Assembly: GCF_000738005.1 (NCBI RefSeq)
Contig: NZ_JHAL01000002.1
Location: forward strand, 494,634-558,633
Source of the DNA: Bifidobacterium crudilactis
GTDB lineage: Bacteria; Actinomycetota; Actinomycetes; Actinomycetales; Bifidobacteriaceae
Reading direction: 5' to 3'
Length of the DNA stretch: 64,000 nucleotides
The notes under the pieces were generated by a model. The model was not told where the DNA came from, made no database searches, and worked only from the letters and a program-made list of their open reading frames with translations. Within the stretch, counting starts at the first letter, position 1. Every line of letters begins with the position of its first letter. Below are positions 18,924-49,277 of this stretch, piece by piece. The position numbers were made by a program, and so were the translations under genes.

Positions 18924-19032
18924 TTCTGTAGGGATTGTTCGCGTGACTCGACCCTCGTGAAGGAGGCCTTGCTGCAATTCCAACGAATTCAGTTGCAATT
19001 ATCGGATGAATACCTGTGAATCCCTACACAAA
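18924..19032. repeat. Family 1 inverted-terminus repeat, copy A
   Basis: About 109 bp with ends TTCTGTAGGGATT and AATCCCTACACAA. It lies between convergent clpC and the MFS gene, after the clpC terminator. The interior shares GCGTGAC and GGCCTTGCTGCAATTCC with copy C, so the copies are related beyond their ends. Confidence 0.8.
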
Positions 19033-19067
19033 CGCAGCTCCGCAAGAATTCAGTGTTTCGCGGAGGA

Positions 19068-20357
19068 TTATATGTCCTCGAAACGCCCTTCTGCGGGGAT
19101 TGACGTGAGACGTGCCTGCAGCCGTCTGTCATAAAGGCGGGTGGAGGGCACGGCGAACATCAGCAGCCCGCAGAACAGCGAGCCGACTCCGGAAAGCACG
19201 AAAATCCATTCCACTCCAAGCGCATCGGCCAACGGTCCGACGAATAGCAACCCGATTGGTCCGGCAATCCCGGAAAGGGACATGCACACCCCGAACACCC
19301 TGCCAAGTTCGTCTGGAGGGAAGGACTGCTGAATCATCGCCATCGGTAGCGTGCTAGGGAAGGCTATCGCCATACCTGCGAAGGCATTGAGGATGACGAA
19401 GAGCACGAATCCGCTCGATGTCCCAGGAAGCAGGCCGCTCAAGGAGAAGGCGACTCCCAATACCCCAATCGCCAGTACCACCGGCCGCATGCGGTCCTTC
19501 CATGTGCCGAAGACGCCGATGATTGCGCCGCCGACCAGTGAACCGATGGACCATACCATCTCCACCACACCAGCCTGGAACACGCTTCCCTTGAAATACT
19601 GGAAGGTCATCAGAGGATACAGGCTTGCGGCAGGCATGAACATCAAGGTGAACAGCGAACTGATAATCAGCATGGACCAGAGCCCACGTGCGCTCGCAAT
19701 CCGCTTGAACCCGAATACGGCATCGGCGATGACCCGTGGCTTCTCCACCAGATTGCTGAGATTGGAGGGGATGCTGATGAGGGCCAGTATGCCCACGCCC
19801 AGCGCAGCCCCCAGAACATCTGCGAGAATCAGATAGTTGATGGGAATGAAGGCGTACAGCAGCGCTCCCAAGGCAGGGGAGACGACCATCGTCGCGGACT
19901 GCACCATGCCGAGTTGCCCGTTGATTTTGGTGATTTCGTCATCCGGCACGATGGTCGGCAGAATCGATTGAATCGTGGGCATCTGGAAGGCCTGGGCGAG
20001 TGAACGTACGAAGAGCGAGACGAATACCAGCCAAAGCGGGAAGGTGGAATTCAGCGTGCCAACGACGGAGAGAATGACCGCGAAGGCGGCAGCCACGAGG
20101 TCGGGCACGATGAGCAAAGCCTTCTTGTTCCACCGGTCGATGAAGGTTCCGACGAATGGGCTGAGCAACACCATCGGCAGCATGGCCAGCAGCGTGGCGT
20201 AGCTCAGGATCGTGGCCGAACCCGATTCCTGTGTGAGATACCAGATAATCGCGTATTGCACGATCATCGAGGTGATGCCGGTCATGAATTGGCTGAACAG
20301 AAACAGGTAACTGTTGCGTCGCCAATTCGTCATCTCGCGAAATGGTGCCTGAGCCAT
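19068..20357 (-). CDS. MFS transporter
   Basis: A 429-residue major facilitator with about twelve hydrophobic segments. The loop between helices 2 and 3 has the MFS signature form GTFIDRWNKKALLIV (compare G.lADR.GRR). The overall pattern resembles the MFS_3/enterobactin-exporter-like and macrolide-efflux groups (NWRRNSYLFLFSQFMTGITSMIVQYAIIWYLTQ), so drug or small-molecule export is likely. I chose ATG at 20357 (MAQAPFREM), where similarity to these exporters begins. The frame is open well upstream, but that sequence is not membrane-protein-like. It is transcribed alone. A roughly 400-base gap separates it from the divergent methyltransferase gene. Confidence 0.9.
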   Translation of the reverse strand: MAQAPFREMTNWRRNSYLFLFSQFMTGITSMIVQYAIIWYLTQESGSATILSYATLLAMLPMVLLSPFVGTFIDRWNKKALLIVPDLVAAAFAVILSVVGTLNSTFPLWLVFVSLFVRSLAQAFQMPTIQSILPTIVPDDEITKINGQLGMVQSATMVVSPALGALLYAFIPINYLILADVLGAALGVGILALISIPSNLSNLVEKPRVIADAVFGFKRIASARGLWSMLIISSLFTLMFMPAASLYPLMTFQYFKGSVFQAGVVEMVWSIGSLVGGAIIGVFGTWKDRMRPVVLAIGVLGVAFSLSGLLPGTSSGFVLFVILNAFAGMAIAFPSTLPMAMIQQSFPPDELGRVFGVCMSLSGIAGPIGLLFVGPLADALGVEWIFVLSGVGSLFCGLLMFAVPSTRLYDRRLQARLTSIPAEGRFEDI

Positions 20358-20757
20358 AGTGAAGCCTTTGCCATTGGGTGGTATAGATACGGAGACACAG
20401 CGGACTCCATGAACAACTATCGCACAGCCTGAATGAAACATGCGCATCAGCTGATGGTGTAAAGCCGCGGTAAGGTTCACCGGATGCGAACGCCCGCATG
20501 CTTCGTGTAATTCCCAATCCTTCGAAGTGACAACCGCATTAGCCTTCGTATGTGATAGACTCGCTGCGCCTGGTATGTATGAAGATGTGAGCACCCATAA
20601 CGTCCGTTGAGACGTAGCACCGCGGCCGAATCCTAAGATTCGGACGGTGCGGTCCGGTGCAACCCGGTGCATTCGGCACCACCTGCCTTCAGTCGCGCTT
20701 CGCTCGGCATTCCGCAACATCACACAACACAACAACATACGTATCAAGGAACATCTG
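20358..20757. other. 400-base divergent intergenic region with a large hairpin
   Basis: This gap separates the leftward MFS gene and the rightward methyltransferase gene and should hold both promoters. At 20617-20650 GCACCG and CCGAATC pair with GATTCGG and CGGTGC around a CTAA loop, forming a long hairpin in the probable 5' leader of the methyltransferase. Directly after it come G/C-rich short repeats of the CCGGTGC type. No T tract follows and no known riboswitch class was recognised. Confidence 0.5.
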
Positions 20758-21675
20758 ATGAATATTTCAAGACCGCAATCCGTGGATCATTCACGGGACA
20801 TCGCCGACAATATGGACAATTGGAACGACCGTGCCACGGTGCACGTCGAAGGAGTGGTGAACGCCACGCGACCGGACGGCGATACAACGCCCAATGGTGC
20901 CTATGGTGATATCCAGGCCTTCATGAAGGACCCGAGGGCCATTTCCTCCGTGGTCCGCCGCGACATGGCCGTGCTGTCACCCCATCTCACCGCAGACGGG
21001 CTGGAGGGCAGCCGTCTGCTGCACCTGCAATGCCATATCGGAACAGATACCTTGAGCTGGGCCAGACTTGGGGCTTCGGAAGTATGGGGATTGGACTTTT
21101 CCGAGACGTCGCTGTCTTATGCCAGGGATATCTGCGCCCGGGCAGGGGAGAGGATTCACTTCGTGCAAAGCGATGCGCGATATGCATCCGAAGCGATGCC
21201 TGAGATGCGCGGCACTTTCGATGTGGTGGTGACCAGCGTCGGCACGATTACCTGGCTGCCTGATTTACGGGACTGGGCGCAGTCCATCGCTGATTTGCTC
21301 ACCGAAGGCGGCGTGTTCATGATCCGTGACACGCACCCGATGCTCTTCGCCCTCGATAATGATGGACTGACGGTCGTGCAGGACTATTTCAGTGGTACGG
21401 AGACCTCGTACGATTCGGACTCATCGTATACCGCGGGTTCCGAAGGCGGCATCACCCATACGCGCAACCATAATTGGGCGCACGACTTCCAGGAGATTAC
21501 GTCCTGCCTTCTGGCGGCCGGGCTGAGTATAGAAGCCCTTGGCGAGCATCGGGACATCGATTGGAAGGCGTTGCCGATGCTGGTGCACGGACCGGAATCC
21601 GAGGACAGCTGGCGTATGCCCGAAGACATGCCGTCCGTTCCGTTGAGCTTCTCGGTAGTCGCCAGGAAACGATAA
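20758..21675 (+). CDS. Class I SAM-dependent methyltransferase
   Basis: A 305-residue Rossmann-fold methyltransferase. Motif I is LLHLQCHIGTDTLSWARLGA, with the usual acidic strand-2 end in WGLDFSETSL. Motif II is present as SDARYASEAMPEMRGTFDVVVTS. The C-terminal third (HNWAHDFQEITSCLLAAGLSIEALGEHRDIDW) resembles small-molecule methyltransferases of the UbiE/SAM_MT_11 kind. The natural substrate is unknown. AAGGAAC eight to ten bases before the ATG at 20758 supports this start. The frame is open upstream through a long structured leader, but that part is unlike a protein. A symmetric terminator follows. Confidence 0.88.
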   Translation: MNISRPQSVDHSRDIADNMDNWNDRATVHVEGVVNATRPDGDTTPNGAYGDIQAFMKDPRAISSVVRRDMAVLSPHLTADGLEGSRLLHLQCHIGTDTLSWARLGASEVWGLDFSETSLSYARDICARAGERIHFVQSDARYASEAMPEMRGTFDVVVTSVGTITWLPDLRDWAQSIADLLTEGGVFMIRDTHPMLFALDNDGLTVVQDYFSGTETSYDSDSSYTAGSEGGITHTRNHNWAHDFQEITSCLLAAGLSIEALGEHRDIDWKALPMLVHGPESEDSWRMPEDMPSVPLSFSVVARKR

Positions 21676-21679
21676 GGAA

Positions 21680-21714
21680 ACGGTGTGTGCCATGGTCCAA
21701 CAGGCACACACCGT
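21680..21714. terminator. Bidirectional terminator between methyltransferase and ABC genes
   Basis: A perfect 12-pair stem (21680-21691 with 21703-21714) with an eleven-base loop lies between convergent genes. It starts five bases after the methyltransferase stop. Confidence 0.75.
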
Positions 21715-21759
21715 CCGGCACGTATATCGCCCTTTGCCGCAAAACCTACCTAGGAACGG

Positions 21760-22500
21760 TCAGACCTGCTGTGAAGCCTGTTCCGGTGTGCTTTCCTGCA
21801 ACTTGCCGTCCTGGATGGTGAGTACCCGGTCGCACTCGCCGAGCAGACGCTCGTCGTGCGTCACCATCACCACTGCGGTGTGCTCCCGCCGCGTGGCCTG
21901 TGCGAAGATGTCGGCAACGCCCATCGCCCGTGAAGTGTCGAGGCTGGCGGTGGGCTCATCCGCAAGAATCACCGCAGGACGTCCGTACAAGGCCACGCAT
22001 ATGGCTGCACGCTGCTTCTCGCCGCCTGAAAGTTCGTCGGGGTACTTTCCGCGGAGTTTCTCGATATCCAAATCCTCCATCAGACTTGCTGCGCGGCGGG
22101 CGTCGTACTTTTCGTGGGCATAGGAGGAATGGAGTTTCAATTGTTCCTCAAGCGTCAGGAAAGGCACCAGGTTCGAGGATTGCAATACGAAACCGACGGT
22201 GCTGAAGCGAAGCTGCGCGAGTTCCTTCCTCGACATACGGGAGTATTCCTTGCCGTCCAGACTCACCGAGCCGCCCGTCGGTTGCTGCAATCCTCCCATG
22301 ATGGTCAGCAACGTCGATTTCCCGGAGCCACTGGGGCCTACGACGGCCACGAATTCGCCGGCATGAATGGTGCAGGTGGTGGGAGCGAGCGCATGCACGG
22401 TTGTGTCACCGTCCGGGTAGTCCTTGTAGACGTCTTTGAAGGCGAGCACCTCCGTGGAGGTGGAGGACGTCTGTTCGTCGTTCGTGTTCTTGATGGTCAT
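21760..22500 (-). CDS. ABC transporter ATP-binding protein, MacB/LolD type
   Basis: A 246-residue ABC ATPase with Walker A GPSGSGKST, signature LSGGEKQRAAIC, Walker B VILADEPTAS and switch His (VTHDERLLG). The family (MacB/LolD/FtsE-like) couples ATP hydrolysis to an FtsX-fold permease. The permease gene precedes it and overlaps by four bases (ATGA at 22497-22500), so the two form one complex. The likely role is export or envelope stress, for example antimicrobial peptide or lipoprotein handling. The substrate cannot be read from sequence. A terminator lies beyond its 3' end. Confidence 0.93.
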   Translation of the reverse strand: MTIKNTNDEQTSSTSTEVLAFKDVYKDYPDGDTTVHALAPTTCTIHAGEFVAVVGPSGSGKSTLLTIMGGLQQPTGGSVSLDGKEYSRMSRKELAQLRFSTVGFVLQSSNLVPFLTLEEQLKLHSSYAHEKYDARRAASLMEDLDIEKLRGKYPDELSGGEKQRAAICVALYGRPAVILADEPTASLDTSRAMGVADIFAQATRREHTAVVMVTHDERLLGECDRVLTIQDGKLQESTPEQASQQV

Positions 22501-23732
22501 GACAAAGCCTCGATAGCGTCTATGGATGAAACGGCTCGTGCGGAGAACGCCGCGCCGATAAGACTGAAGAGCACCAGCACGCCCGAAATGATGGCGAACC
22601 AGTAGGTGCTTACCGTGATGGGAACGGTGACCGGCATGAAGGCGATGGTCAGCAGGGAGAGCAGCAGACCGACAAGCGTGCCGATGACGGAGAGTATCAG
22701 CGTCTGCGCGAGTATCGAGCGGGAGATGAAGCTGTTCGAGTAGCCCTGCGCCTTGAGCACTCCGAAGAGGTGACGCTTGTGCATGGTCAGGATGTAGATG
22801 AAGATGCCCACGACCAGAGCGGACACGCCGACCAGGAATCCTATCATCAGGGCGAAGGTGAGCACCTGCGCCTGATATCCGGGAATGTTGTTGATGAAGG
22901 ACTGCATGTCGAGTGAAACCATGCCATCTGGCACCGAGACCTTGGCCGAGGCGTCGCGAATGACCAGACCACTGGCCACGACCGCGTCATCGGAGCTTGC
23001 GCTTGCGGCATTCCGCGTCGATTGCTGCTGGGTGTTGGCGCTGGTGGCGGTTGCGGTGCTCGATGAATCGGCGGTGGCTCCGGTGACGCTTGCATCCGAG
23101 GACATCGAAGCATAGGCCGAGGGGAGTGTGAAGGTGCCGTTGCGTACGTAGATCACCGGCTCGGTGTTGTATTCCGCGGTTTTGGTGAATCCTACGATTT
23201 TGTAGGTGTATCCGGCCCGGCCGACGCTGACGCTGTCGCCGAGCTGGACGCCGTCCTTGGTGGACAGGCTTTCGCTGGCGACCGCTTCCTTCTCGTCGGC
23301 GGCGTTGCGTCCACTCACCAGTTGCGGTATGAGGGTCGAATCCTCGCGCACGCCAAGCAACACGGTGTTGAATCCTTCGCCGCTGGTGCTTCCGGACTCC
23401 TTGATTTTCGTCACCGCCTGCAGCACACTGACCGGCTCGATGTCCTTGGTGCCGGATTTGCCGGTATTGTCGGTGCCGGTGTTCGCGTCAGTGCCGAGTA
23501 CTTTGGATTCCTCGGCCCTGGTCACTGACGATGATACGAGGTTGCCGTTCGCGTCGTCCGACAGCAGGATGCTCGACGCATTCCAGGCATCGACCGATGT
23601 GCGATTCGCTTGGGCGAGACCATATGACAGCGCTGTCAAAAAGAACGACAGATACCCGACGAGTACGATAACCGCCAGTATCAAGGCGTAACGCCCCTTT
23701 GAGTGGCGGATTTCCTTCCATGCAAGTTGCAT
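22497..23732 (-). CDS. ABC transporter permease, FtsX/MacB fold
   Basis: A 411-residue permease. One N-terminal transmembrane helix (about 15-38) is followed by a large extracytoplasmic domain (about 40-285). That domain contains a Ser/Ala/Thr-rich, probably disordered insertion (SDASVTGATADSSSTATATSAN). Three C-terminal helices form the FtsX core (VLTFALMIGFLVGVSALVVGIFIYILTMHKRHLFGVLKAQGYS ...). This matches a MacB-type half transporter working with the ATPase downstream. AGGGG four bases before the ATG supports the start. About 225 bases of apparently empty sequence and a family 2 repeat lie upstream. Confidence 0.9.
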   Translation of the reverse strand: MQLAWKEIRHSKGRYALILAVIVLVGYLSFFLTALSYGLAQANRTSVDAWNASSILLSDDANGNLVSSSVTRAEESKVLGTDANTGTDNTGKSGTKDIEPVSVLQAVTKIKESGSTSGEGFNTVLLGVREDSTLIPQLVSGRNAADEKEAVASESLSTKDGVQLGDSVSVGRAGYTYKIVGFTKTAEYNTEPVIYVRNGTFTLPSAYASMSSDASVTGATADSSSTATATSANTQQQSTRNAASASSDDAVVASGLVIRDASAKVSVPDGMVSLDMQSFINNIPGYQAQVLTFALMIGFLVGVSALVVGIFIYILTMHKRHLFGVLKAQGYSNSFISRSILAQTLILSVIGTLVGLLLSLLTIAFMPVTVPITVSTYWFAIISGVLVLFSLIGAAFSARAVSSIDAIEALS

Positions 23733-23957
23733 GCATCCCCTGCTTCCCCCGATATGAACGTCGGATTAGGTGCGTCGCATGGCTTTGGCGGTCTGACCTC
23801 GGACGGGCCAGTTCCCCAACCGCCAGAGTCCTGCGATAATTCCTCGACCAACAATACGCATCGTCATATGTCCCCGTAGGATTCACGCCCTAAGAGTATG
23901 AAGACCGTAAAGAATGCTGATGGTGTTCGGTCTGATGGGTGCTTGAAACCGATACGT

Positions 23958-24034
23958 TGAGATAACTGCACTAAAAGGACAGCAAATTAGCCAGAATTTC
24001 TCTGGAAAGCTGTCCTTTTAGTGCAGTTATCTCA
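23958..24034. repeat. Family 2 inverted repeat, best copy (b)
   Basis: Two perfect 26-bp arms (23958-23983 and 24009-24034, starting TGAGATAACTGCACTAAAAG) flank a 25-base centre that itself contains CCAG...CTGG. It starts 12 bases beyond the 3' end of the ecfT fragment gene (24047, leftward) and is upstream of the permease gene at 23732. Four relatives occur in the window. Confidence 0.9.
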
Positions 24035-24046
24035 TTGGGGGGACTC

Positions 24047-26559: not shown

Positions 26560-26570
26560 ACGTACCGACC

Positions 26571-27197
26571 TCAGCGATGGACGAGCATCGAAATCGGCTT
26601 GTAGATCAGGAAGGTCACCACGCCGTGGATGGCGAGTTTCATCAGGTTGAAGGGCAGGAGGACGGGCAGAATCATCGTCGCCACGGCGCTGACCGAGATA
26701 TTGGCATAGAGCGGTGTGATGATGAGGTTGCCGATGATCGCCACGGCCAAGGCGCACACCGAACCGACGATGATGCCGAGCAAGGCGCCCTTGCGTGTAT
26801 GTACGCGGCGGTAGACGAGAGATGCGGGAACGCTTAGCGACAGTGCCACGGCAACAGCCATCAAGGTTCCGTATGGGTCGGTGAAGAGGTGTGGCACCCA
26901 TGACAAGATACTGACGAGAACGGCCGCCATCGGCCCGAAGGCGAATCCCGAGATTAGCGACACGATGCCGGAAGGATCGTATTTCAGATACGGTGCCGCC
27001 GGGAACAGCGGCAGTTCGATGAAGCTGGCCACAATCGACAGCGCCACGAATAATGCGTATATGGCGATTCTCCGTGTCGACCAGCGTCCCTCCTGCACAT
27101 CGCTTGTGGAATGCGGGTCCCTCTTCGGAGACAACGGCTGATGCGAGGAATTTCGCGGAGTGTTTGCGGGTTTGGACCCGTCTGAAGGCATGCTCAT
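26571..27197 (-). CDS. ribU: ECF transporter substrate-binding protein, riboflavin (RibU-like)
   Basis: A 208-residue integral membrane S component. A hydrophilic leader of about 45 residues precedes about six helices beginning RRIAIYALFVALSIVASFI. The block PYLKYDPSGIVSLISGFAFGP is the RibU-type conserved loop that lines the flavin site. An FMN riboswitch stands directly upstream, which makes riboflavin the strongly expected substrate. The start ATG at 27197 has GAGG six bases before it. An in-frame ATG at 27218 lies inside the riboswitch 3' end and is less likely. ATPase and EcfT genes for the energizing module follow after 11 bases, but their fused frame is broken. Confidence 0.93.
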   Translation of the reverse strand: MSMPSDGSKPANTPRNSSHQPLSPKRDPHSTSDVQEGRWSTRRIAIYALFVALSIVASFIELPLFPAAPYLKYDPSGIVSLISGFAFGPMAAVLVSILSWVPHLFTDPYGTLMAVAVALSLSVPASLVYRRVHTRKGALLGIIVGSVCALAVAIIGNLIITPLYANISVSAVATMILPVLLPFNLMKLAIHGVVTFLIYKPISMLVHR

Positions 27198-27211
27198 ATT
27201 GAGCCTCGTTT

Positions 27212-27350
27212 CTTTCATCCGGACTGTAACCGTTGGCCTCGGATTCTCACCGAATCAGCCGCTTGCGCGGGTCGCGGGCTTCGGCATATCGCTGTTATGA
27301 CTCTCGGCGTTGCCGTTACCGCCAGTAAGGAGTTGCACCTTCCCTGAAAC
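27212..27350 (-). promoter_or_regulatory. FMN riboswitch (RFN element)
   Basis: Read leftward, the conserved blocks occur in order: AGGGAAGGTGCAACTCC, ACTGGCGGTAACGGC, AGCCCGCGA, GATTCGGTGAGAATCCGAGGCC and GGTTACAGTCCGGATGAAA. The outer stem pairs TTTCA near 27346 with TGAAA near 27214. It controls the ribU operon. The aptamer ends about 15 bases before the chosen start codon, so control of translation initiation is likely. No separate terminator hairpin is visible. Confidence 0.95.
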
Positions 27351-27655
27351 TGACGACATAAATTTACCACACCGTATTCATCTCACCGTGTGATTCTGCT
27401 CGCGTGGGGTGATTCCACAGGGTACTGGGCTGCCTGCAATATGCATGTGCCACATGACTATGGTGCGTCATGCGAATCACCTTGGGAGAGTTGTCGTAGC
27501 GCCGCTTGTTGCGCCGAGAAGACTAGCGCGCAGGCCTGCATACGGCACGGCAGCGAGGATGTCAGGAAGAGGGCAAGGCACTCGAATGCACTTGACCTGA
27601 CTCTTCCCAGCACTCCGGAATGCGGGCAACCGTCATGCGTGCAAGAATGGTGAGC

Positions 27656-28639
27656 ATGGATAAAGTGGCAATTGTTGTGGTGACCTATCGCAGGCAGGAA
27701 CTGCTGGCGACTCTCTTCGAATCGATACTCAACCTCACCAAGGCTCCCTGGCGAGTGGTGATCGTCGACAACGAGCATTCCGATACGACCAGGCAGATGG
27801 TCGAGGAATTCGAGAGCGCGGTCACCGGCCAATGGGGCAAGACCATCCCGGATTCGTCGGGCGAAGACAGCAGGGTCGTATACGCTCCGCAAAGCGACAA
27901 TCTCGGGGGGGCGGGCGGTTTCTCAGCAGGGGTAAAACGAGCCTACGAACTGGGTGCCCAGTGGTTCTGGGTGATGGACGATGATGTGGCCGTCGAACCC
28001 GAAGGACTCGACAAGCTTGCCAAGTGGTCGGACAAGCATGAGGTCATCCAGGGGTCACGTCTCGACTATGACGGCGGTCCCTTCTACTGGCAGTACCATT
28101 TCATCGTGTCGCTCGGCATTCCCGATCCCATCGCACCCGCCGCGTTCGGGCAGGCGGGCTACCGGGTGATGAACACCATGTGCTTCGAGGGCGGATTCTT
28201 CTCCAGACGAGTGGTTGAGCGCATCGGATTCCCGGACCCGCGCTTCTTCATCTATTGGGATGACACCCTGTACGGCTATCTTGCCAGCAAGGTCACCACA
28301 CCCATCGTGGTGCCTGATGTGGTGATGCGACGTACCCGCGAAATCGGCAACTGGGATATCGCAGGTGTGCGTCAGCTCAATTCGACGTCTGATATGAACC
28401 GGTACCACATCATGCGCAACAGAGGGTACATGGCCCGGTACTTCATGCAGCACGGCGATTACCGTCCGGCCCTGTTCGCCCTGGGGACGGCAGCAACCTT
28501 CACGAAGGAACTCATCAGGCTCGTGGCCGTTGACCGCAGCAGTTTTGGCAGCGGCGTCAAGAAGCTCGTCACTGGGTGGTGGGACTCCAGAAAACTCCTC
28601 CATGACCCCGAGTGGAAGCCCATGCCCCCTCTGAAATAG
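27656..28639 (+). CDS. Glycosyltransferase family 2
   Basis: A 327-residue GT-A fold glycosyltransferase. The nucleotide-sugar site begins VAIVVVTYRRQELL with VVIVDNEHSD. DNLGGAGGFSAGVKRA and WFWVMDDDV form the acceptor and DxD metal motif region, and FFIYWDDTLYGY carries a probable catalytic acidic pair. The pattern is like GlfT1-type and rhamnosyl or galactofuranosyl transferases of actinobacteria, so cell-wall or exopolysaccharide glycan synthesis is likely. It appears soluble or peripheral. The start (MDKVAIV) is chosen because the fold begins there. Upstream in-frame codons exist and the ribosome-binding site is weak (GGTGAG). Confidence 0.9.
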   Translation: MDKVAIVVVTYRRQELLATLFESILNLTKAPWRVVIVDNEHSDTTRQMVEEFESAVTGQWGKTIPDSSGEDSRVVYAPQSDNLGGAGGFSAGVKRAYELGAQWFWVMDDDVAVEPEGLDKLAKWSDKHEVIQGSRLDYDGGPFYWQYHFIVSLGIPDPIAPAAFGQAGYRVMNTMCFEGGFFSRRVVERIGFPDPRFFIYWDDTLYGYLASKVTTPIVVPDVVMRRTREIGNWDIAGVRQLNSTSDMNRYHIMRNRGYMARYFMQHGDYRPALFALGTAATFTKELIRLVAVDRSSFGSGVKKLVTGWWDSRKLLHDPEWKPMPPLK

Positions 28640-28651
28640 GGGAGTGATGCG

Positions 28652-28751
28652 TTTCTGTAGGGATTTGTGCGTAGACCATCGGTGCAAGGCCAGTGATTCG
28701 GCTGTTTTCCAGTGCCTACGAGCTCGATATATCTATAAATCCCTACACAAA
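28652..28751. repeat. Family 1 inverted-terminus repeat, copy B
   Basis: About 100 bp with ends TTTCTGTAGGGATTT and AAATCCCTACACAAA, 12 bases after the glycosyltransferase stop and before the convergent nitroreductase gene. It shares the subterminal GCGTAG..CC with copies A and C. Confidence 0.8.
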
Positions 28752-28785
28752 CGACAGATGAGCGTGAAGTGCATGCGAATTTCGG

Positions 28786-29568
28786 CTAGGGGCGGCTGAA
28801 TGAAGCCTCGTTTCCCCATTGCCAGGTGCCTCCGCCGGCTCCAATCTGAAAATGCAGCTTCGCGATTCCCAAATCGTTGAGCAGAAAGCGGCCGGAAGCA
28901 TCTGACGCGATGAACGCTTTGGCCGTGCCTGTGGCGGCGTCATAGAAGAACCGCGTGGTCTGAGCGTTCATGGCCGAAGGTGCCTTCAGTGCGGCAGTGA
29001 CGCCGTCCTTGAACCAGTCCGGCGCTGCTTCGACTTCGGCGGCGCTCATGTCGGGTGTCGCCTCTGCCAAGGAAATCGAAGGACGATGCTTCGATTGAAT
29101 TTCACGAAGTTCCTTGAAGTCGCTGCGGAGCAACTGAGCCTGGTCTATCGGATACCCGATGGTGATACCCAGATACAGCTCCTCGCCAGGTAATATCGAG
29201 CAGCGTTGTGCGGCAGCCTGACGGTCCCAGCTGCCCGCCACCCATCCCGTGCCAAGACCGTAGAGCGTTGCGGCCAGCACGATACGCTGCGCATAGAAGC
29301 CTGCCTGTTCATATGCCTCCGGGGATTCTTTCGGCCCCACGACGGCTATGACATTGTTGGCGTTCCTGAAATGGCCTGAGGCGTTCGCTTCTGCGAACAC
29401 GTCGGGACAGTCGCTGATGAGCTGGATATGCAGACCCGAGAGAGTGTTCACTGCGGAGATCGTCGTGTCGAGTTTTCTGATGTGATCCTCGGCTAGTGAA
29501 GTGGGATCGTAATTTCTGGTGGTGGTGCGGATGTCGATCGCGTCGATGAGTCGTGGTTGTTCTGCCAT
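28786..29568 (-). CDS. Nitroreductase-family protein
   Basis: A 260-residue protein of the putative TM nitroreductase family (two-lobed FMN-dependent fold). The N-terminal part has AIDIRTTTRNYDPTSL, matching the Arg-rich FMN phosphate site. The middle has YEQAGFYAQRIVLAATLYGLGTGWVAGSW, typical of the helix and flavin loop (GLGT.W). The C-terminal part contains APSAMNAQTTRFFY, a second flavin-contacting block. It probably reduces quinones or nitro compounds with NAD(P)H. The substrate is unknown. ATG at 29568 is preferred over the GTG directly before it. The gene stands alone. Confidence 0.88.
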   Translation of the reverse strand: MAEQPRLIDAIDIRTTTRNYDPTSLAEDHIRKLDTTISAVNTLSGLHIQLISDCPDVFAEANASGHFRNANNVIAVVGPKESPEAYEQAGFYAQRIVLAATLYGLGTGWVAGSWDRQAAAQRCSILPGEELYLGITIGYPIDQAQLLRSDFKELREIQSKHRPSISLAEATPDMSAAEVEAAPDWFKDGVTAALKAPSAMNAQTTRFFYDAATGTAKAFIASDASGRFLLNDLGIAKLHFQIGAGGGTWQWGNEASFSRP

Positions 29569-29732
29569 CACTCTATTATTATGCCTACATGAAGAAAATC
29601 CACCATCGTGTCGCCGTTCAGTGTGGCCTATGGGATGCGGTGGGGATATGATTCATACGCACCGCTCCGACACCCAAAGTCTCGGCGGGTGTATTCGGGC
29701 ACGAAGAGTTTCCAGCAACAAGGAGATCAAGG

Positions 29733-30597: not shown

Positions 30598-30811
30598 CAT
30601 ATGGGAGTAACAAGGCAGTGCAGATGGCTATACGGCTACCCACGAGTATGCGATTCACTGTCTGCAGAGCGCGGATTACGGCGAGTCATGCGGGTGGAGG
30701 CACATTCCCCAACGGAATTCCGTCGCTCTTGGCAGCCCTCGAAGAAGCAGGAACAGCAGTCAATCAGCGTATTTTGCGTGCTTGTGCCATGATGCGGCAC
30801 GAAGCGTCGCA

Positions 30812-30920
30812 TTTGTGTAGGGATCGTCGCGTAGCCCAAGGCAGTCGTATGCCGGAAGGCTTGCAATTCCGTCGCACATTTTCGTGATGGTTCGAGTCTC
30901 GTGGAAAATCCCTACACAAA
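30812..30920. repeat. Family 1 inverted-terminus repeat, copy C
   Basis: About 109 bp with ends TTTGTGTAGGGAT and ATCCCTACACAAA. It lies between ppgK and the aminotransferase gene. The 215 bases before it (30598-30811) hold no recognisable gene. Its right end is only 12 bases from the ATG at 30933. Confidence 0.82.
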
Positions 30921-30932
30921 CGGAATCGAAGG

Positions 30933-32231: not shown

Positions 32232-32244
32232 TCCACTTTGAGAT

Positions 32245-32315
32245 GATAACTGCACTACAAGGACAGCTTTTCCGAGAATTATTTCCGTATTGCTGTCCTT
32301 TTAGTGCAGTTATTC
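32245..32315. repeat. Family 2 inverted repeat, copy c
   Basis: The arms GATAACTGCACTACAAGGACAGC and GCTGTCCTTTTAGTGCAGTTAT pair with one mismatch, around a central TTTTCCGAGAATTATTTCCGTATT. It begins 14 bases after the aminotransferase stop, between convergent genes. Confidence 0.88.
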
Positions 32316-34872: not shown

Positions 34873-41077
<6,205 letters not shown>

Positions 41078-41219
41078 AGACTCATGGAATGGTGTGCAAT
41101 CCGGAGTGCGGAGCCGATGTCGGTCATCAGAGCTTTCACCGGCTCTGCACACGCGGTATGAGGGGTCGCATTAGGGTGGTTGATGCAAGAGTGAATGAGG
41201 AGATGAGCCGAGGATGAGT

Positions 41220-42368: not shown

Positions 42369-42409
42369 GAGGCTCTTTGTATTTTGGCGTGAAAGAACCC
42401 ACCCAATAC

Positions 42410-42480
42410 GATAACTGCACTAAAAGGACAGCTTTTCGGAGAAATTTTCACCATATTGCTGTCCTTTTAGTGCAGTTATC
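42410..42480. repeat. Family 2 inverted repeat, copy d
   Basis: Perfect 23-bp arms (42410-42432 with 42458-42480) flank a 25-base centre, TTTTCGGAGAAATTTTCACCATATT. It starts 42 bases after the mrp stop and may serve as its terminator. Confidence 0.9.
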
Positions 42481-42962
42481 TCCTCCTACATGAGTATGAG
42501 CATCCCGATGTAGCCGTTAGTTTCGCGATATTCGGACCTTACTGTTACAGTGTGTTGTTGAGATATACGCGAGGTTCCCCCACATGCCAAGGGAGCTGCA
42601 CATAAGGAGCTGTTCTTACGATTTCACGATAACCGACGAGATGGCGCACGGCCGATGGTGGCCTGAGTGTGCCTGAGCGTCCCGTTATTCGTGAATCGTC
42701 AATCGAATCCACCCCGTGCACACTATGGGCCATTGGGCTTCGGCCGCGTTTCTTGGAATCAGTACTGTTCAAGCGTTACTGTTCAAGCGACATAGTTGAA
42801 ACGGCACTGCGTGAACTCCATACGGTGGAATCGATATCCTGACGTCACATGCCGGCATGACATCAAGGCCGACATCATCACGGTTGCGGACTGCGAAGGT
42901 ATCCATCCTCGTCATGAAACACATCAATCAGACATACATATTGATAGGTGGACCGAGGAATC
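42481..42962 (+). other. 480-base region upstream of the ABC-F gene
   Basis: No convincing gene is seen in this interval. It contains a 13-bp direct repeat TACTGTTCAAGCG at 42763-42775 and 42777-42789. The base composition is lower in G+C than the flanks. ABC-F resistance genes often have long regulatory leaders, so the stretch may hold the promoter and an attenuator, but no clear terminator or leader peptide could be defined. Confidence 0.4.
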
Positions 42963-44537
42963 ATGTTTCAAACATCCGTATTGACAATCAGCAATCTCAC
43001 AGTGCATCAGACAGGTACATCGAACGCTCTGTTCGAGAACGCCAATATGACCTTCTCGCAGGGGTGGACGGCGATACTCGGAGATAACGGCATCGGTAAA
43101 ACGACTATGGTGCGGGTCATCATGGGGGAGCTCCAGCCCTTCAGCGGCAACATCGCGCCGGCACCGAAGAATCTGGTATTCGGCTACTGTCCGCAGGACA
43201 ATGCGGTGCGACCGCACAACATCGAGGAGTTCGCTACGGACTGGTCACCCTTGGCGATTCGCATCAGAGAGCAGCTCGGCATAGATGAGTCCTGGCTCTG
43301 GCGTTTTCAGACTCTTTCCGGCGGCGAGCAGAAACGCGTCCAGTTGGCCTGCTCGATGGTGTTGGAACCCGATGTACTCATTTTCGACGAACCGAGCAAC
43401 CATGTGGATGAGGACACCGCTCAGGCGATAGCTTCGGCTATGCAGGGCTATCGGGGCATCGGTCTACTGATCTCACACGATGTTGCGCTGATAGACGCCA
43501 CCGTTCAGCAGTGCCTCTTCATGGAACGTAAACATGTGCAAGGGCGGAACGTCACTGTGCTGACCATGAGAAAGGGCAACTACACACAGTCGGCCGCACA
43601 GGTCGAGCTAGAGGAGGACAGCGCGGCGCAGGAGCTGAAACAAGCCAAACGTACTGCGGACCGTATCGACGCGGCGAAGGCGCATCGCGTGTATGAGGCT
43701 GCACAGTCGGCAGCCAAACGACGCGGTGACAAGATCGACAGAAAGGACCATGATGCCATCGCCAAACGGCGTTTCGCCATCGTTACCGGGAAGGACGCCC
43801 GTGCCGGTGCCGCCAGCGCTCGCATCGACCACCAGGTCAAGTCCGCGCATGAACGAGTCCAGGGGCTGGTGACCTCGAGCAAACGGTATGACGGCGACAT
43901 CTGGCTCGATGCGAGAGCCAGCCACCGCAAGGAACTGGTACGACTTGACGAAGGTCTGCTGCCCTATGCGCCGGAGAGTGACAACACCTCAGCGGCATTG
44001 TCACGGGGCCTGCATATCCCCACACTCAGCGTCGGACCACATGACCATATCGGTATTTCAGGACCGAACGGCACAGGGAAAACCACGCTGTTCAAAGCCA
44101 TCCAAGCAGCCATCACACGACAGACCGACAGTATCCCGGCGCTGTCCATCGACCAGATCACCGGTGCTGGCCAGGCCGAGCAAGCCTTTGAAAGCTTGCG
44201 GAACATGTCGTCTCAGGACCGTGCGGCCGTGTTCAGTTCCATGGCGCAGCTCAATGCCGACCCGGACAAACTCCTGTCAGGAGAATCGCCTTCTCCCGGT
44301 GAGTTGCGTAAGTTGCTGCTTTGCCTCGGAGCCAGAAAGCATCCGGAACTGATTCTGATGGATGAGCCCACCAATCATTTGGATTTGCATTCCAAACAGG
44401 CGCTGGGTAGGACATTGGCGGCATTCCCCGGCGCAGTCATCATCATCTCCCATGACATCTACTTCCTGAATCTCGTCGCGCAGATACGCTGGCGTCTGCA
44501 CAGGACCGAAGACGGGGCTGAATTGGACTTACGATGA
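42963..44537 (+). CDS. ABC-F family ATPase (ribosome-associated type)
   Basis: A 524-residue protein with two ABC ATPase domains on one chain and no membrane helices, as in ABC-F. Domain 1 has Walker A GDNGIGKTT, signature LSGGEQKRVQLA and Walker B VLIFDEPSNHVDE. Domain 2 has Walker A GPNGTGKTT, a divergent signature (LSGESPSPGELRKLLLCLGA) and Walker B LILMDEPTNHLD. A charged helical linker lies between. ABC-F proteins bind the ribosomal E site; some protect ribosomes from antibiotics. The Lsa/Vga-like compactness suggests that class, but specificity cannot be told. The ATG at 42963 has GAGG four bases upstream. Confidence 0.9.
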   Translation: MFQTSVLTISNLTVHQTGTSNALFENANMTFSQGWTAILGDNGIGKTTMVRVIMGELQPFSGNIAPAPKNLVFGYCPQDNAVRPHNIEEFATDWSPLAIRIREQLGIDESWLWRFQTLSGGEQKRVQLACSMVLEPDVLIFDEPSNHVDEDTAQAIASAMQGYRGIGLLISHDVALIDATVQQCLFMERKHVQGRNVTVLTMRKGNYTQSAAQVELEEDSAAQELKQAKRTADRIDAAKAHRVYEAAQSAAKRRGDKIDRKDHDAIAKRRFAIVTGKDARAGAASARIDHQVKSAHERVQGLVTSSKRYDGDIWLDARASHRKELVRLDEGLLPYAPESDNTSAALSRGLHIPTLSVGPHDHIGISGPNGTGKTTLFKAIQAAITRQTDSIPALSIDQITGAGQAEQAFESLRNMSSQDRAAVFSSMAQLNADPDKLLSGESPSPGELRKLLLCLGARKHPELILMDEPTNHLDLHSKQALGRTLAAFPGAVIIISHDIYFLNLVAQIRWRLHRTEDGAELDLR

Positions 44538-44570
44538 AGAATTAGTCCCCGGCAGTCGCCGATTTGACGC

Positions 44571-44678
44571 TTGTGTAGGGATTGTTCCGGATTCGGTCTC
44601 CTGACCCGTATAGAAACGTTGAAATCCAGGCAATATGAATTTCGGATGCTGACCGGCGCACCACAAATCCCTACACAG
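44571..44678. repeat. Family 1 inverted-terminus repeat, copy D
   Basis: About 108 bp with ends TTGTGTAGGGATT and AATCCCTACACAG, between the convergent ABC-F and rarD genes. It nearly fills the gap and ends 8 bases from the rarD stop. Confidence 0.78.
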
Positions 44679-44685
44679 GCGACAA

Positions 44686-45636
44686 TTACACGTCGCCAGG
44701 GGCGGATGAAGCCAGCTTCCGGCGACTGGCATGTCGGTGGCGGGCAATCAGCGCAAAGGAATAGACCGCCAGCGAGAGCCATATGATGCAGAAGGCAAGC
44801 AACATCGTGTGGTTGATGGCTTCGTGCAGAAAGAGAATAGCCGAAAGGAATTGCAACGTCGGATTGATGTACTGCACGAATCCAACGGTCAGATACTGCG
44901 AGTGCTGCACCCCGTAAGCGAAGGTGATGAGCGGTATCGCCGTCACTATCCCGGCACCCATCAGCAGCACGAGGATACCGGTGCTCTGGTGGTCGATGCC
45001 GAAGTGCGGCTGCCACACGAGCCAGAGCAGCGCCAGGGGAGTGACGGCTGCGGTCTCGAAGGTGATGGACTGCAGAGAATCCAGGGGGACGACTCGTTTG
45101 AGCAGACCATATCCGCAGAAGGTCAACGCCATGATCAGACCCAGCCAGGGAACGCCGCCGCTGCCGACGATGAATACGCACACTCCCACACCCGCCAAGG
45201 CTATGGAAATCCAGCCGAAGACATTGGTGCGCTCACGCAACACGATGATGGCGATGAGCATGTTCATCACCGGCATCAGGAAGTATGAGGCCGATGCTTC
45301 CAGGGTTTTGCCGACGCTCACCAGAATGATGTACAGCAGCCAGTTCACGCTGATCAGCATCGCGGCGATGACGGCGAGCAGAACAAGCGTTTTGGTCTTC
45401 CACAGTTTCGCCACGGCTACAAGGAAACTGCGGTGCCTACGCAACAACGCCAGCACCAGCACCATCGTTACCATAGTGGTGATGATGCGATAGGACAGGA
45501 CGGTGTTCGGCGGCACGGTGCTCAGGGCGTCCCAATACACGGGAAACAGTCCCCAGGCGACGCTGGAAACGGTGATCGTGAGCAGACCGCGAGGCGTCTG
45601 TGTGACAGGTGTGGCCGTAGGCATAGCGGTCATCAT
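44686..45636 (-). CDS. rarD: RarD-like EamA-family transporter
   Basis: A 316-residue membrane protein with about ten helices in two repeated halves, the DMT/EamA fold. The N-terminal half starts GLLTITVSSVAWGLFPVYWDALS, and RarD-like YRIITTMVTMVLVLALLRR, NWLLYIILVSVGKTLEASASYFLMP and GFVQYINPTLQFLSAILFLHE match the RarD subgroup strongly. RarD proteins are named after chloramphenicol sensitivity, but their true substrate is uncertain. The start is either of two adjacent ATG codons (45636 or 45633), and no strong ribosome-binding site is visible. It is convergent with ABC-F, and the next gene upstream is 89 bases away. Confidence 0.9.
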   Translation of the reverse strand: MMTAMPTATPVTQTPRGLLTITVSSVAWGLFPVYWDALSTVPPNTVLSYRIITTMVTMVLVLALLRRHRSFLVAVAKLWKTKTLVLLAVIAAMLISVNWLLYIILVSVGKTLEASASYFLMPVMNMLIAIIVLRERTNVFGWISIALAGVGVCVFIVGSGGVPWLGLIMALTFCGYGLLKRVVPLDSLQSITFETAAVTPLALLWLVWQPHFGIDHQSTGILVLLMGAGIVTAIPLITFAYGVQHSQYLTVGFVQYINPTLQFLSAILFLHEAINHTMLLAFCIIWLSLAVYSFALIARHRHASRRKLASSAPGDV

Positions 45637-45725
45637 ACAGGTGCCACGTAAGCAATGGTTTTCGTCAGGTAGTCGGGTCTCTGAAGACGGTTGGTCTGGG
45701 GTAGCCGAGCGTATGCTCCTGAGCT

Positions 45726-46388
45726 TTAGCCGAGGGCCGTCAGGGCATTCTGAATATCCGTATCGCCGTCATGGAAGTTGACTGTCTTCCCGATGGTATC
45801 GGGGGAGTGCACGGCCGCGACCAGTACCGCTGCCACATTGCCACGAGAGGTAGGCGGTATCGCTGCGGTTTTCCTTGCGGTGTCGACGGTAATCCGCCCG
45901 CTGGGTGTTTGCAAAGTAAGTGCGGTAGGCCCCAGAATCGTCCACTCAAGCTCGGATTCGCGCAGATACGTGTCTGCGGCCGCCTTCGCCTGGGCATAGG
46001 CATACATGGAATCCTCCGGTCCGAACACCTCCGGATGGTCGGCATCGTAGTAGGACACCGTGATGTACCGCTTCACCCCAGCAAGGGCAGCCGCATCAAT
46101 GCAGCGTTTCGCGGCATCGCGGTCAACGGCGTATGTTCTCGCGGCATCGCCGCCACCTGCTCCGGCGGACCAGATAATCGTGTCACTGCCGGAAAAGGCC
46201 TTCGCCAGTTCGTCGGTCGATGCGTGCTCGATATCGAGTATCAGGGCCTGTGCTCCTGTTTTTTCGACATCGAAGGCCTGTGTGGGGTTACGAATAATCG
46301 ACGTGACCGAATCTCCCTGCGAGTTGAACAACCGGCTGGCCAACAATGCGACTTTGCCGTGACCACCGATAATCGTGACCTGTGCCAT
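45726..46388 (-). CDS. NAD(P)-binding atypical SDR-family protein
   Basis: A 220-residue Rossmann-fold protein of the NmrA/atypical short-chain dehydrogenase group. The dinucleotide loop is IIGGHGKVALLASRLF (G-x-H-G-x-V instead of G-x-x-G-x-x-G), followed by SIIRNP, DTIIWSAGAG and ITVSYYDADHPE. The classical YxxxK catalytic pair is replaced by YAYAQAKAAAD, a partial match. Such proteins can act as flavin/quinone reductases or redox sensors. The role here is not known. GGAGG at good spacing precedes ATG 46388. It is followed by rarD in the same direction. Confidence 0.88.
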   Translation of the reverse strand: MAQVTIIGGHGKVALLASRLFNSQGDSVTSIIRNPTQAFDVEKTGAQALILDIEHASTDELAKAFSGSDTIIWSAGAGGGDAARTYAVDRDAAKRCIDAAALAGVKRYITVSYYDADHPEVFGPEDSMYAYAQAKAAADTYLRESELEWTILGPTALTLQTPSGRITVDTARKTAAIPPTSRGNVAAVLVAAVHSPDTIGKTVNFHDGDTDIQNALTALG

Positions 46389-46579
46389 AGTGTCCTCCCC
46401 TTGCTGCTGTGTCCGTGATAAGGCGACATGCATCCAATACCCGTCTTTCCAACACTATGACAGCTGCGAGATGAGATGTGACCGTTTCACCGAGTGCATA
46501 GAGACGACCATACCGCCTGACGCTGTGTCCTCAGATGATGAAGCGTCCTGCCTCGCGGTCAGAGTGCTGCCGCGCAAAG

Positions 46580-46615
46580 CAATGCCCCTCCATGCAATGG
46601 CACGGAGGGGCATTG
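46580..46615 (-). terminator. Terminator after glnA
   Basis: CAATGCCCCTCC (46580-46591) pairs with GGAGGGGCATTG (46604-46615), a perfect 12-pair stem, 18 bases beyond the glnA stop. The following T content on the minus strand is weak (CTTTGC). Confidence 0.8.
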
Positions 46616-46633
46616 ATGCGACGAAGGACGAAC

Positions 46634-48070
46634 TCAGATGTGGAAGTAGAGTTCGTACTCAAGCGGCGTCGGGGCGAGGCGTGCCTCGTCGATTTCGCCC
46701 TGCTTGAGCTCAATCCAGGTGTCGATCAGATCGTCGGTGAACACGTCGCCGGCGGTCAGGAAGTCGTGGTCTGCCTCGAGAGCCTTCAGAGCCTCACCCA
46801 ATGAACCTGGGACCTGAGCGATCTGGTCATGCTCTTCGGGAGGAAGCTCGTAGAGGTCCTTGTCGACTGGTTCCGGTGGCTCGATGTGGTTGAGGATGCC
46901 GTCAAGGCCGGCCATGAGCTGCGCGGAGAAGGCCAGGAAGGGGTTCGAGCTTGGGTCCGGTGCGCGGAACTCGATGCGCTTCGCTGCAGGTGAGGTACCC
47001 GCGAGCGGGATACGAATAGCGGCGGAACGGTTACGGGCCGAGTAGACGAGGTTGACGGGAGCTTCGAAGCCGGGAACCAGACGATGGTAGGAGTTCATCG
47101 AGGGGTTGGTGAAGGCCAGAACTGAGGGAGCATGCTTGATCAGACCGCCGATGTACCAGCGGGCGATGTCGGAAAGGCCGCCATATCCTCTCTCGTCGTA
47201 GAAGAGGGGCTTGCCGTCTTTCCACAGCGACTGGTGGCAGTGCATGCCGGTACCGTTGTCTCCGGCGATTGGCTTCGGCATGAAGGTCGCCGCTTTGCCT
47301 GCGATGGCCGCGGTCTCGTGAACGACGTACTTGTACTTCATCAGATCGTCGCCCGCGTGCTGCAGGGTGTTGAAGCGGTAGTTGATTTCCTGCTGTCCGG
47401 CGCCGCCGACCTCATGGTGCGAACGCTCAAGAATCAGGCCGACCTCCTGGAGCTTCGCGACCATGTCATCGCGCAGATCCTGGTTGTGGTCGATTGGCGG
47501 AACGGGGAAATACCCCTTCTTCACACGGTTCTTGAAACCGATGTTCGGAGTGCCGTCGTCTTCGATGTCGGTTCCCGAATTCCATGGGGCTTCGATGGAG
47601 TCGACTTCGTAGAAGGAGCGGCTCATGCTGTTCTCGTAGCGGACCTTGTCGAAGATGAAGAACTCGGCCTCTGGTGCGAAGGATGCGGTGTCGGCGATGC
47701 CGGTGGACTTGAGGTACGCCTCGGCCTTGGCGGCCACCTGACGAGGATCGCGTGAGTAGGGCTCATCGGTGAGAGGATCCACGATGGAGAATGCCACGTT
47801 CAGGGTCTTGTGCTTACGGAAAGGATCGATGAATGCAGTGCTGACATCGGGCACGAGCTTCATATCGGATTCGTTGATGGCCTGGAAGCCCTGGACCGAT
47901 GACCCGTCGAAAGGCATGCCTTCGTCGAACGCATTGTCAAGGAACTCATTTGTCGGCACCGTGAAGTGCTGCTGAACACCAATGAGGTCAGTAAAACGGA
48001 CAGAGACGTATTCCACGCCCTCCGTATTGATAAGAGCCTCGGCGTCGGCCTTTGTTTTCAGTTCAGTCAC
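46634..48070 (-). CDS. glnA: Glutamine synthetase, type I
   Basis: A 478-residue GSI that forms glutamine from glutamate, ammonia and ATP. Conserved parts are the N-terminal beta-grasp with [11 protein letters not shown], the metal/ATP site [11 protein letters not shown], the substrate block [28 protein letters not shown] and the Arg block [31 protein letters not shown]. The adenylylation site is conserved as [10 protein letters not shown], which indicates control by GlnE as in GSI-beta enzymes. The start is GTG at 48070 with AAAGGAG at good spacing. It is transcribed alone with its own terminator. Confidence 0.98.
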
Positions 48071-48273
48071 TGAACTGCTCCTTTCATGAGAACTTACGAA
48101 TCCCAAGTCTAGAAGAACGCGTTACCCGTACGCGCCCGTCAGGTTACGAGGATGTTTCGGCGTATGCCGAATCGTGGAATTGCGGGGGACACCCGCATGG
48201 CATCGAGGTATTCACTATGTGGACGTGGACGGTTTCGGATGTTCGTCTGTCACGGCGATGGGCAGGGAAGTCC

Positions 48274-49011
48274 TCAGCGTCCACGCATGGCTCGACGGTT
48301 GACGCGGACCTTCGTGGGGTCGACGCCCTTCGGCACACCGATGCCTGATTGCTGCTGCAGGGTGCGAAGACGGTCGTTGAGTTGTTCGAGTTCGAGCTTG
48401 GTGAGCTTGATTTTCTTGCGCATCACCGTTTTCTGCAGATTGGCCAGAGGCACCTGCTGCTCGCCTTTGCCGACGCTGATCTTATGAATCGGGATGGCAG
48501 AACCGCGAGTGATGCGGTGGACCTTGGTCTCCTCCCGATCCATGGCCTTGCTGACTCTGGCGAAATCGCCTTCACCGACGAGATACACACCTGAACGACC
48601 GGTGCCCCGCCAAACGGCATCCTTGGTCTTCATATCAATCCACACGGGTTCCTGAGGGAAGCTGAAGCCGCCCTTGGTGATGTTGTTCAGCACTGCTCCG
48701 GTGGCTCCGGGGCGACCTTCCATGCGTCGGTATCCGACTTTGTCCGAACGCCTGGTCAGGGTGATGGTCGCCAGCAGCAGGCCGCACATGATGCCTGTCA
48801 GTACGACCATAATCCACGTGAACCATCCGGCCTTGATGACCACGCCCAGAATCACGGCGATAAGCACCGGCCCGAGAAAGGCGATGGCCAGAAAACCCGG
48901 AAGAGCCTTGTCTTCTTTCGCGGTGAACGAATAGATCTGCTTGATCTGGGACAGCGTGCCCTTGGATTGCTTTGTTTTCTTGGACTGTGCCTTGTCAGCG
49001 TTGTCTGCCAT
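48274..49011 (-). CDS. DUF4191 domain-containing membrane protein
   Basis: A 245-residue protein of the actinobacterial DUF4191 family. A Lys-rich N-terminus (about 1-35) precedes two adjacent transmembrane helices (about 38-60 and 63-85). A soluble domain follows with the family block GYRRMEGRPGATGAVLNNITKGGFSFPQEPVWIDMKTKDAVWRGTGRSGVYLVGEG. The C-terminus is basic and helical (MRKKIKLTKLELEQLNDRLRTLQQQ). The function is not known. It has been linked by conserved position with lipoate or glutamine metabolism genes in actinobacteria, and here it is next to glnA and lpd. GAGGG precedes the ATG. Confidence 0.9.
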   Translation of the reverse strand: MADNADKAQSKKTKQSKGTLSQIKQIYSFTAKEDKALPGFLAIAFLGPVLIAVILGVVIKAGWFTWIMVVLTGIMCGLLLATITLTRRSDKVGYRRMEGRPGATGAVLNNITKGGFSFPQEPVWIDMKTKDAVWRGTGRSGVYLVGEGDFARVSKAMDREETKVHRITRGSAIPIHKISVGKGEQQVPLANLQKTVMRKKIKLTKLELEQLNDRLRTLQQQSGIGVPKGVDPTKVRVNRRAMRGR

Positions 49012-49168
49012 ACCACCCTCACTTAAGTTGCATTACTGGAAAGACAGTCTATCAATAGACACATCGAATCGCTCGCCGTGGCCTCCTGAGCCATGAGCCA
49101 TGCTGTTCACCGCTCGTGTATCAGGTGGTACCTGCTTGATGGACCGAGGATTCGTCGGGCGCATCGCG

Positions 49169-49277
49169 TTTGTGTAGGGATTCTGTCGATGATTTTGACT
49201 TTTGCGGTTTCAATCTCGTGTCATTCCGCCAAATACATCAACGATCAGCTCGCTTGTATTCGAGAATCCCTACACAA
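49169..49277. repeat. Family 1 inverted-terminus repeat, copy E
   Basis: Exactly 109 bp with perfect 15-bp ends TTTGTGTAGGGATTC and GAATCCCTACACAAA. It lies 13 bases from the lpd stop and upstream of the DUF4191 gene. This copy has the best-matched ends. Confidence 0.85.

Follow-up and report, generated by a model that had tools for sequence, protein, structure and literature searches.

Miniature inverted-repeat transposable elements (MITEs) of bacteria are about 100 bp long, carry inverted ends and lie dispersed between genes. RIT elements are grouped with the mobile integrase cassettes as recombinase-trio units, and in resolvase res sites, the Hin enhancer and lac-type loops, distant sites cooperate best when whole helical turns separate them. 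Here we analyse a family of short intergenic elements with inverted ends, found in a 64,000-nucleotide stretch of the Bifidobacterium crudilactis genome (contig NZ_JHAL01000002.1, positions 494,634 to 558,633 of the forward strand; this whole stretch is called the window). Resolvase, Hin and lac-type arrangements are single regulatory or recombination sites, whereas here dozens of dispersed symmetric copies are present.

As described in the relevant parts of PMC3116915, REPINs have two conserved inverted ends and a less conserved spacer of constrained length, are extragenic and randomly distributed, and occur with several end types per genome. The bifidobacterial elements are alike in ends, spacer, extragenic random placement and multiple end types, and the REPIN way of life, as portrayed there, is the nearest to theirs in population behaviour. 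Unlike REPINs, they have no RAYT, no spacer pairing above background, lengths set by turns of double-stranded DNA and a conserved core; the inverted extragenic ends fit, and the assignment was rejected on the absence of RAYT from 27 genomes and on arms that do not pair above background. Passages of PMC3464196 describe internal eliminated sequences of Paramecium whose lengths are quantised by about 10 bp, read as looping between paired ends, and whose interiors decay; they cite the same looping logic for bacterial transposon and repressor loops, and mention helical-twist experiments on bacterial loops. Shortness, length steps of about 10 bp and decaying interiors are common to both. However, according to these passages the Paramecium sequences are eukaryotic, excised, single-copy and at least partly derived from Tc1/mariner, whereas our elements lie between bacterial genes, have a core that is in phase with either end, and are not known to be excised. 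In B. longum, mobile integrase cassettes as presented in PMC2430713 have an inverted repeat of about 96 bp and a unit of three integrase genes. The repeat length and the genus recall our elements, but the sequence is unrelated, and no such trio was found among the tyrosine recombinases of two carrier genomes (G000 and G024, described below), which led us to reject a cassette or RIT. A search of open-licence papers gave, among the matches listed, no description of such elements.

A sequence-only reading of the window had pointed out five dispersed copies. All five were recovered, with exact 9-bp inverted ends for which 100 shuffles gave an expectation of 0: A (18921..19034), B (28650..28753), C (30810..30922), D (44568..44681) and E (49167..49280), none assigned to a strand. 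The sequence TGTAGGGAT occurs 10 times in the window, 10 out of 10 within these elements, against an expectation of 0.07, and from TGTAGGGAT to ATCCCTACA the elements measure 102, 92, 101, 102 and 102 bp. The inverted ends, first put at about 14 bp, extend to 16 bp in the alignment of copies (CGTTTGTGTAGGGATT, inverted at the other end). The lengths, first described as nearly constant, are actually discrete, one helical turn apart. As the same reading had it, no coding frame lies inside, and our own gene-calling script called no gene over any of the five.

The elements have a common architecture and helical phasing, a core grammar, an intergenic bias towards 3' ends and vertical persistence, and a second lineage carries them with a swapped end box. 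We lean, by a little, towards reading them as double-stranded DNA assembly sites for a looping complex of the domesticated transposase or recombinase type. Binding, looping and recombinase nature are what we infer here; a protein complex is suggested by the one-turn length steps, the conserved centre, the inverted ends and the free interiors.

Further copies were found throughout the B. crudilactis genome (G000; 2,362,816 bases in 6 contigs), 52 exact ones at gaps of 65-90 and 53 at 65-95, where a reversed-pattern control gave 0. Among 27 genomes of the genus, exact copies of this type, called type 1, were present only in G000 (53) and G024 (74), and a search of 189 family genomes with 12-bp ends was positive in the same two only (40 and 63). 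Exact 12-bp boxes in G000 number 56 and 61; the 100 listed fall at 62 separate places, on contig C1 and on C2 up to 1.42 Mb. Very roughly, and by extrapolation, the G000 total with imperfect ends would be 70-75. The type-1 pattern gave 0 matches in viral contigs and 0 in a collection of named species, which perhaps does not include the near relatives. In G023, a close relative, exact copies of type 1 and of the type 2 described below are absent from the genome, and 400 kb showed no inverted pair that recurs. For the measurements that follow, 142 type-1 elements were parsed: 51 of the 53 exact G000 copies, all 74 of G024, and 17 with end mismatches (13 in G000, 4 in G024). Left aside were a doubtful pair (L164) whose partner has 5 mismatches and which would be 105 bp long, 1 off the classes; a pair with a 4-mismatch partner at 102-bp spacing (L057:7984-8097); a solitary box (L169); and two inside-out pairs (L159, L160).

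Inward from the ends, type-1 elements have weak inner boxes, GnAnAC near positions 16-21 and AGTAT near 26-30, and a central dyad core. The GGCTTG(CTG)CAATTCC motif that had been noticed in A and C is part of this core and is present across the whole set. Lengths of the 142 elements were 82 (1), 91-93 (25), 101-104 (107) and 113-115 bp (9), with none between the classes, and all 35 elements outside 101-104 stood at whole-turn offsets. When a core profile was slid freely along each element, 140 of the 142 gave an end-to-core distance of 41, 51, 52 or 62 bp to within 1 bp; the profile had been trained on 102- and 104-bp elements, which makes the result circular for the 56 training elements and not for the other 86. 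In non-modal elements, arms of 41, 51, 52 or 62 bp were found in 59 of 70 cases, versus 8% in shuffled interiors. Length classes and freely placed cores together establish that the core-to-end distance varies by whole DNA turns. Counted from either end, position 41 is almost always A in the 92-bp class (21/22 and 20/24 halves), so that these elements may contain three half-sites spaced by one turn. The earlier suggestion of a bipartite protein-binding site is supported as far as the protein site goes; two parts appear to be too few, since ends and core together would make a tripartite, helix-phased site. Complementarity of the interior arms was 0.27-0.35 within elements and 0.30-0.35 between different elements. 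As arms do not pair above background, hairpins of RNA or single-stranded DNA are not what the elements have in common.

A second type came out of comparing, across genomes, the gap 3' of the ClpC-type gene that adjoins element A. In G005 (B. aquikefiri LMG 28769), G006 and G016 an element with different ends, GAGTTTTGYGGCAATT, and a length of about 103 bp occupies this gap; in G023 the element is absent and a separate terminator hairpin is kept. The tree of the ClpC-type gene places G023 outside the G000 and G024 pair, with support of 100/99 for the pair and 99/97 for the trio. An exact family-wide search found type 2 only in G005 (10), G006 (18) and G016 (28). In the named-species collection, its pattern matched 10 B. 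aquikefiri stretches and one Bacteroidetes record, which was rejected as a carrier, its sequence being an unrelated TTTTGTGGCA-type repeat. Forty-five type-2 elements were parsed (18 of 18 in G006, 21 of 28 in G016, 6 of 10 in G005). All measure 96-98 bp except one at 107, which is again a one-turn step, and their box reads AGATTnCGAGTTTTGYGGCAATT, then AAGTAT. The two types have the same architecture and core rule, a different end box, and sometimes the same intergenic gap. Among 39 type-2 loci of G006 and G016, 15 have at least one neighbour in common with a type-1 element (at least 55% identity) and 7 have both; these are raw counts, in which some places of G006 and G016 appear twice. Such shared places may reflect common ancestry or a shared site preference. 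In G024 the ClpC-type gene itself is split over two frames (C1:1178126-1180748; query residues 1-148 and 147-874), by a frameshift or an assembly error.

Each half of the core reads GGC or GTT, rarely GGT or GTC. At bases -6,-5 of 208 type-1 halves we counted GC 81, TT 69, GT 5 and TC 4, where 40.2 GT and 39.0 TC were expected, with CC and CT (20 each) near their expected rates; the Fisher P of 1e-33 is nominal, as halves are not fully independent. The same held for 88 type-2 halves from the other species (GC 39, TT 29, GT 4, TC 0; expected GT 20.5, TC 14.3; P 4e-16). GGC-or-GTT is a joint rule rather than two independent preferences. Common to species with different end boxes, it offers a strong handle in the search for the protein. 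Type-2 cores, for example L234:3001-3097, also show a polarity, with one GGC and one GTT half, and a CGWCG-like centre, which type-1 cores do not have.

At 19 places both neighbours are orthologous and an element is present in both G000 and G024. There the ends are kept: identity is 83% over the outermost six bases (the inner 9-mer being exact by selection), against 30-41% in interiors and 37% in the flank beyond. The turn class is conserved at 18 of the 19. From this pattern, interiors have reached saturation, whereas ends and spacing have been retained. The sequence-only reading would have been refuted by a lack of further copies or of conserved ends in relatives; neither was the case. A few orthologous interiors are more alike (0.61-0.70), mostly those with a central hairpin. 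Boxes with up to 2 mismatches outside exact elements proved nearly all to be halves of further elements, and type-1 boxes with 4 mismatches were in no excess over the control (11 vs 22; 39 vs 50). Worn or solitary ends are rare but real.

Of 125 elements compared, 7 fall into three clear groups with whole interiors in common, and there are one or two further weak pairs. Within the groups some copies are inverted, and the likeness ends at the boxes. In G000 a near-identical pair flanks a 3.8-kb sugar cassette, composed by Pfam of a LacI-type regulator, without its DNA-binding part in our own call, a sugar transporter and a GH32 glycosidase; a single element stands at the G024 counterpart. The two members of this pair (L024:4001-8009; G000 C1:133554-137562) have the same orientation, and the six bases at the centre of one are the exact reverse complement of those in the other, as though the central palindrome had been inverted. 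A twin pair of G024 occupies sites where G000 has two unrelated elements, which looks like conversion.

Placement was scored on gene calls from our own script. For the 51 elements of G000 the flanking genes were co-directional in 27 cases, convergent in 22 and divergent in 1, with 1 element overlapping a called gene; the figures were 40, 27 and 3 for the 74 of G024 (4 unclassified), and 17, 20 and 2 for 39 of type 2. Compared with the intergenic bases of the same stretches, the gene-orientation bias had P = 7e-10 and 3e-6. Around the 64 parsed elements of G000 and the 78 of G024, 81 genes per genome have their 3' end within 150 bp, versus 12 with only their 5' end there. The elements are intergenic, near 3' ends, rich between convergent genes and poor at divergent promoters.

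In the window, element A (102 bp from one outer 9-mer to the other, with arms 51+51, the core dyad at about 18977|18978 and an imperfect left outer box) stands between the ClpC-type gene (16215-18839, +; by Pfam) and a convergent gene, and a hairpin at about 18867-18894 followed by TTTT forms a separate terminator-like structure nearby. Element B, of the 92-bp class and so one helical turn shorter, is flanked by convergent genes at 27620-28639 (+) and 28786-29571 (-), and the orthologous gap of G024 has a 102-bp element. Element C (101 bp) lies between two + strand genes. Element D (102 bp, arms 51+51) has the 3' ends of convergent genes 37 and 11 bp away, and element E, of the same dimensions, has - strand genes on both sides, the 3' end of one of them (49291-50835, -) being 17 bp away.

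On the looping-complex reading, a trans-acting, sequence-specific complex would assemble on the double-stranded element. A dimer would occupy the central dyad core, and one end box per arm (of 16 bp for type 1 and about 23 bp for type 2, accompanied by the weaker inner boxes) would stand whole turns away, at 41, 51-52 or 62 bp, so that short DNA loops could bring both ends onto one face while the rest of the element would be free to change. The complex would most likely be, or derive from, a transposase or recombinase encoded by a single domesticated gene elsewhere in the genome. It might occasionally copy or convert whole elements; insertions into genes or promoters would be lost, and copies would persist as sites that must still work.

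Several observations weigh against this reading, first of all from the search for a partner. No binding protein was identified among the recombinases, transposases and immediate neighbours examined. Among 15 tyrosine recombinase matches in G000, G024 and G023, none was exclusive to the type-1 genomes, and the three common to G000 and G024 are all in G023 too. RAYT-type Y1 transposases (PF01797) gave no match at E <= 0.001 in any of the 27 genomes of the genus; 5 of 14 controls were positive, E. coli included. At the same threshold G024 has no serine recombinase (PF00239), which rules this class out as the conserved partner and led us to reject a serine recombinase site. No partner-like gene stood beside the elements inspected: the immediate neighbours of 51 elements in G000, 74 in G024 and, for type 2, 39 of the 46 in G006 and G016, viewed as complete proteins or protein ends, all looked ordinary.

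Others come from the elements themselves. A handful have one worn end (3 to 5 mismatches), so there is some drift; one exact box (L169; G000 C2:276479) has no regular partner; two pairs are inside-out, with boxes facing outward (L159:4000-4128 and L160:4000-4128; G000 C1:235403 and 442964); and unpaired type-2 boxes with 4 mismatches are slightly above control (12 vs 5). Copying is supported by only the three clear groups. In the flanks, as read, no target-site duplication could be made out: the outer bases are inverted and were for that reason counted as part of the element, and the empty site of G023 did not align with base precision. Finally, the conserved ends at orthologous places could equally be compatible with a host function.

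Some details of the same survey can be recorded here. Both inside-out pairs have exactly 113 bp between box starts and lie in convergent-gene gaps. At L054 (G000 C2:1159120) and L085 (G024 C1:1819242) the element is between an rplT-like gene, named by eye, and a XerC-like gene. A 450-residue tyrosine recombinase is 100% identical between G000 (L152; C2:1682746) and G024 (L154; C1:2333939), and its G023 relative (L153; C2:184298) is 99% identical, far above the other recombinases compared, so it is probably a recent mobile element.

Host function is the alternative that survives best, and we regard it as possible while thinking it clearly less probable. The elements would then be sites of a chromosome-organising, insulating or transcription-end factor, each kept for its own effect and with little mobility. 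Ends, spacing class and position that persist while interiors are randomised speak for it, as does the small number of worn copies, and placement near 3' ends, just past the terminator at the Clp gene, suits insulation or supercoil relief. However, positions on the G024 chromosome are random rather than evenly spaced (coefficient of variation 1.02 vs 0.98 for random placement), and neighbours are not enriched for high codon adaptation (P = 0.10 in G000 and 0.71 in G024, with 4 and 7 reference genes). G023, moreover, does without any exact copy and, in 400 kb, without recurrent paired ends.

A classic MITE family, that is, short non-autonomous derivatives of an insertion sequence that drift after insertion, is improbable. 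The sequence-only reading had offered a MITE-like family as one option, and part of this stands: inverted terminal repeats on a short non-coding element were found, the copies are dispersed and intergenic, occur in two sister species and are absent from the next, a few ends are worn and one box is solitary, and three groups have interiors in common that stop at the end boxes. Unlike in MITEs, however, shared interiors are limited to those groups (7/125), on which MITE membership was rejected, and interiors are otherwise unrelated. Worn ends are rare, orthologous sites with saturated interiors keep their ends, and the core is kept and phased to the ends. No parent element was found either: among the 100 of 117 exact G000 12-bp boxes listed, no pair stands at insertion-sequence distance and no longer element has these ends.

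We give very little credence to sites of Xer/dif or another tyrosine recombinase with accessory boxes, after the logic of cer/psi or resolvase. Accessory sites of that kind are helix-phased, and in our comparison the elements weakly resemble the arms of the local dif site. Type-2 cores, with halves mixed and spaced, mostly combine one GGC and one GTT half (33 of 40, 20 expected; P = 2e-5), as for a XerC/XerD heterodimer. Type-1 halves, in contrast, abut without the usual crossover region of 6-8 bp and show no excess of mixed cores (14/39 and 32/63; 9/23 in the 92-bp class), and a dif-like site and Xer-type genes are also present in G023, which has no elements; a Xer/dif site was rejected. A first dif-like site was present in 5 of 5 genomes searched, and G006 has a second one, with 3 mismatches, near a contig end (C1:2359762-2359785).

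An RNA element or bidirectional terminator closed by a terminal stem, as the sequence-only reading had also proposed, is hardly credible: some copies do have strong central hairpins, partly common to orthologues, but the interiors as a set pair no more than background, the length steps are those of DNA turns, the terminator of the Clp gene is a separate hairpin kept where the element is absent, and the elements have no match in Rfam. The Rfam search of the window, on which a structured RNA was rejected, gave only an FMN riboswitch at gathering score (27203-27355, -; 83.4 bits).

Returning to the looping complex, we put forward, tentatively, that these elements could be a bacterial counterpart of the ciliate eliminated sequences: miniature double-stranded DNA elements, spread over the whole chromosome and kept working by a host looping recombinase that would read a two-state core code (GGC/GTT) and a lineage-specific end box, the latter replaced across dozens of sites in related species. 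The 187 sites of both types parsed in five genomes amount to a natural helical-twist experiment, in which the box-to-core distance shifts by whole turns. If a domesticated recombinase is involved, they would show selfish miniature elements becoming fixed chromosomal sites; if a host factor is, they would be a large unrecognised class of bifidobacterial boundary elements.

The window also contains a second dispersed family, made of GATAACTGCACTAAAAGGACAGC and its inverse around a variable centre of 24-25 bp, 70-71 bp in all. Copies are at 23961-24031, 32245-32314, 42410-42480 and 56695-56765, with a degenerate one at 2909. From their sequence, the long complementary arms could form a hairpin. 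In 0.58 Mb of G000 we counted 33 copies; 0.50 Mb of G024 gave 4, all divergent.

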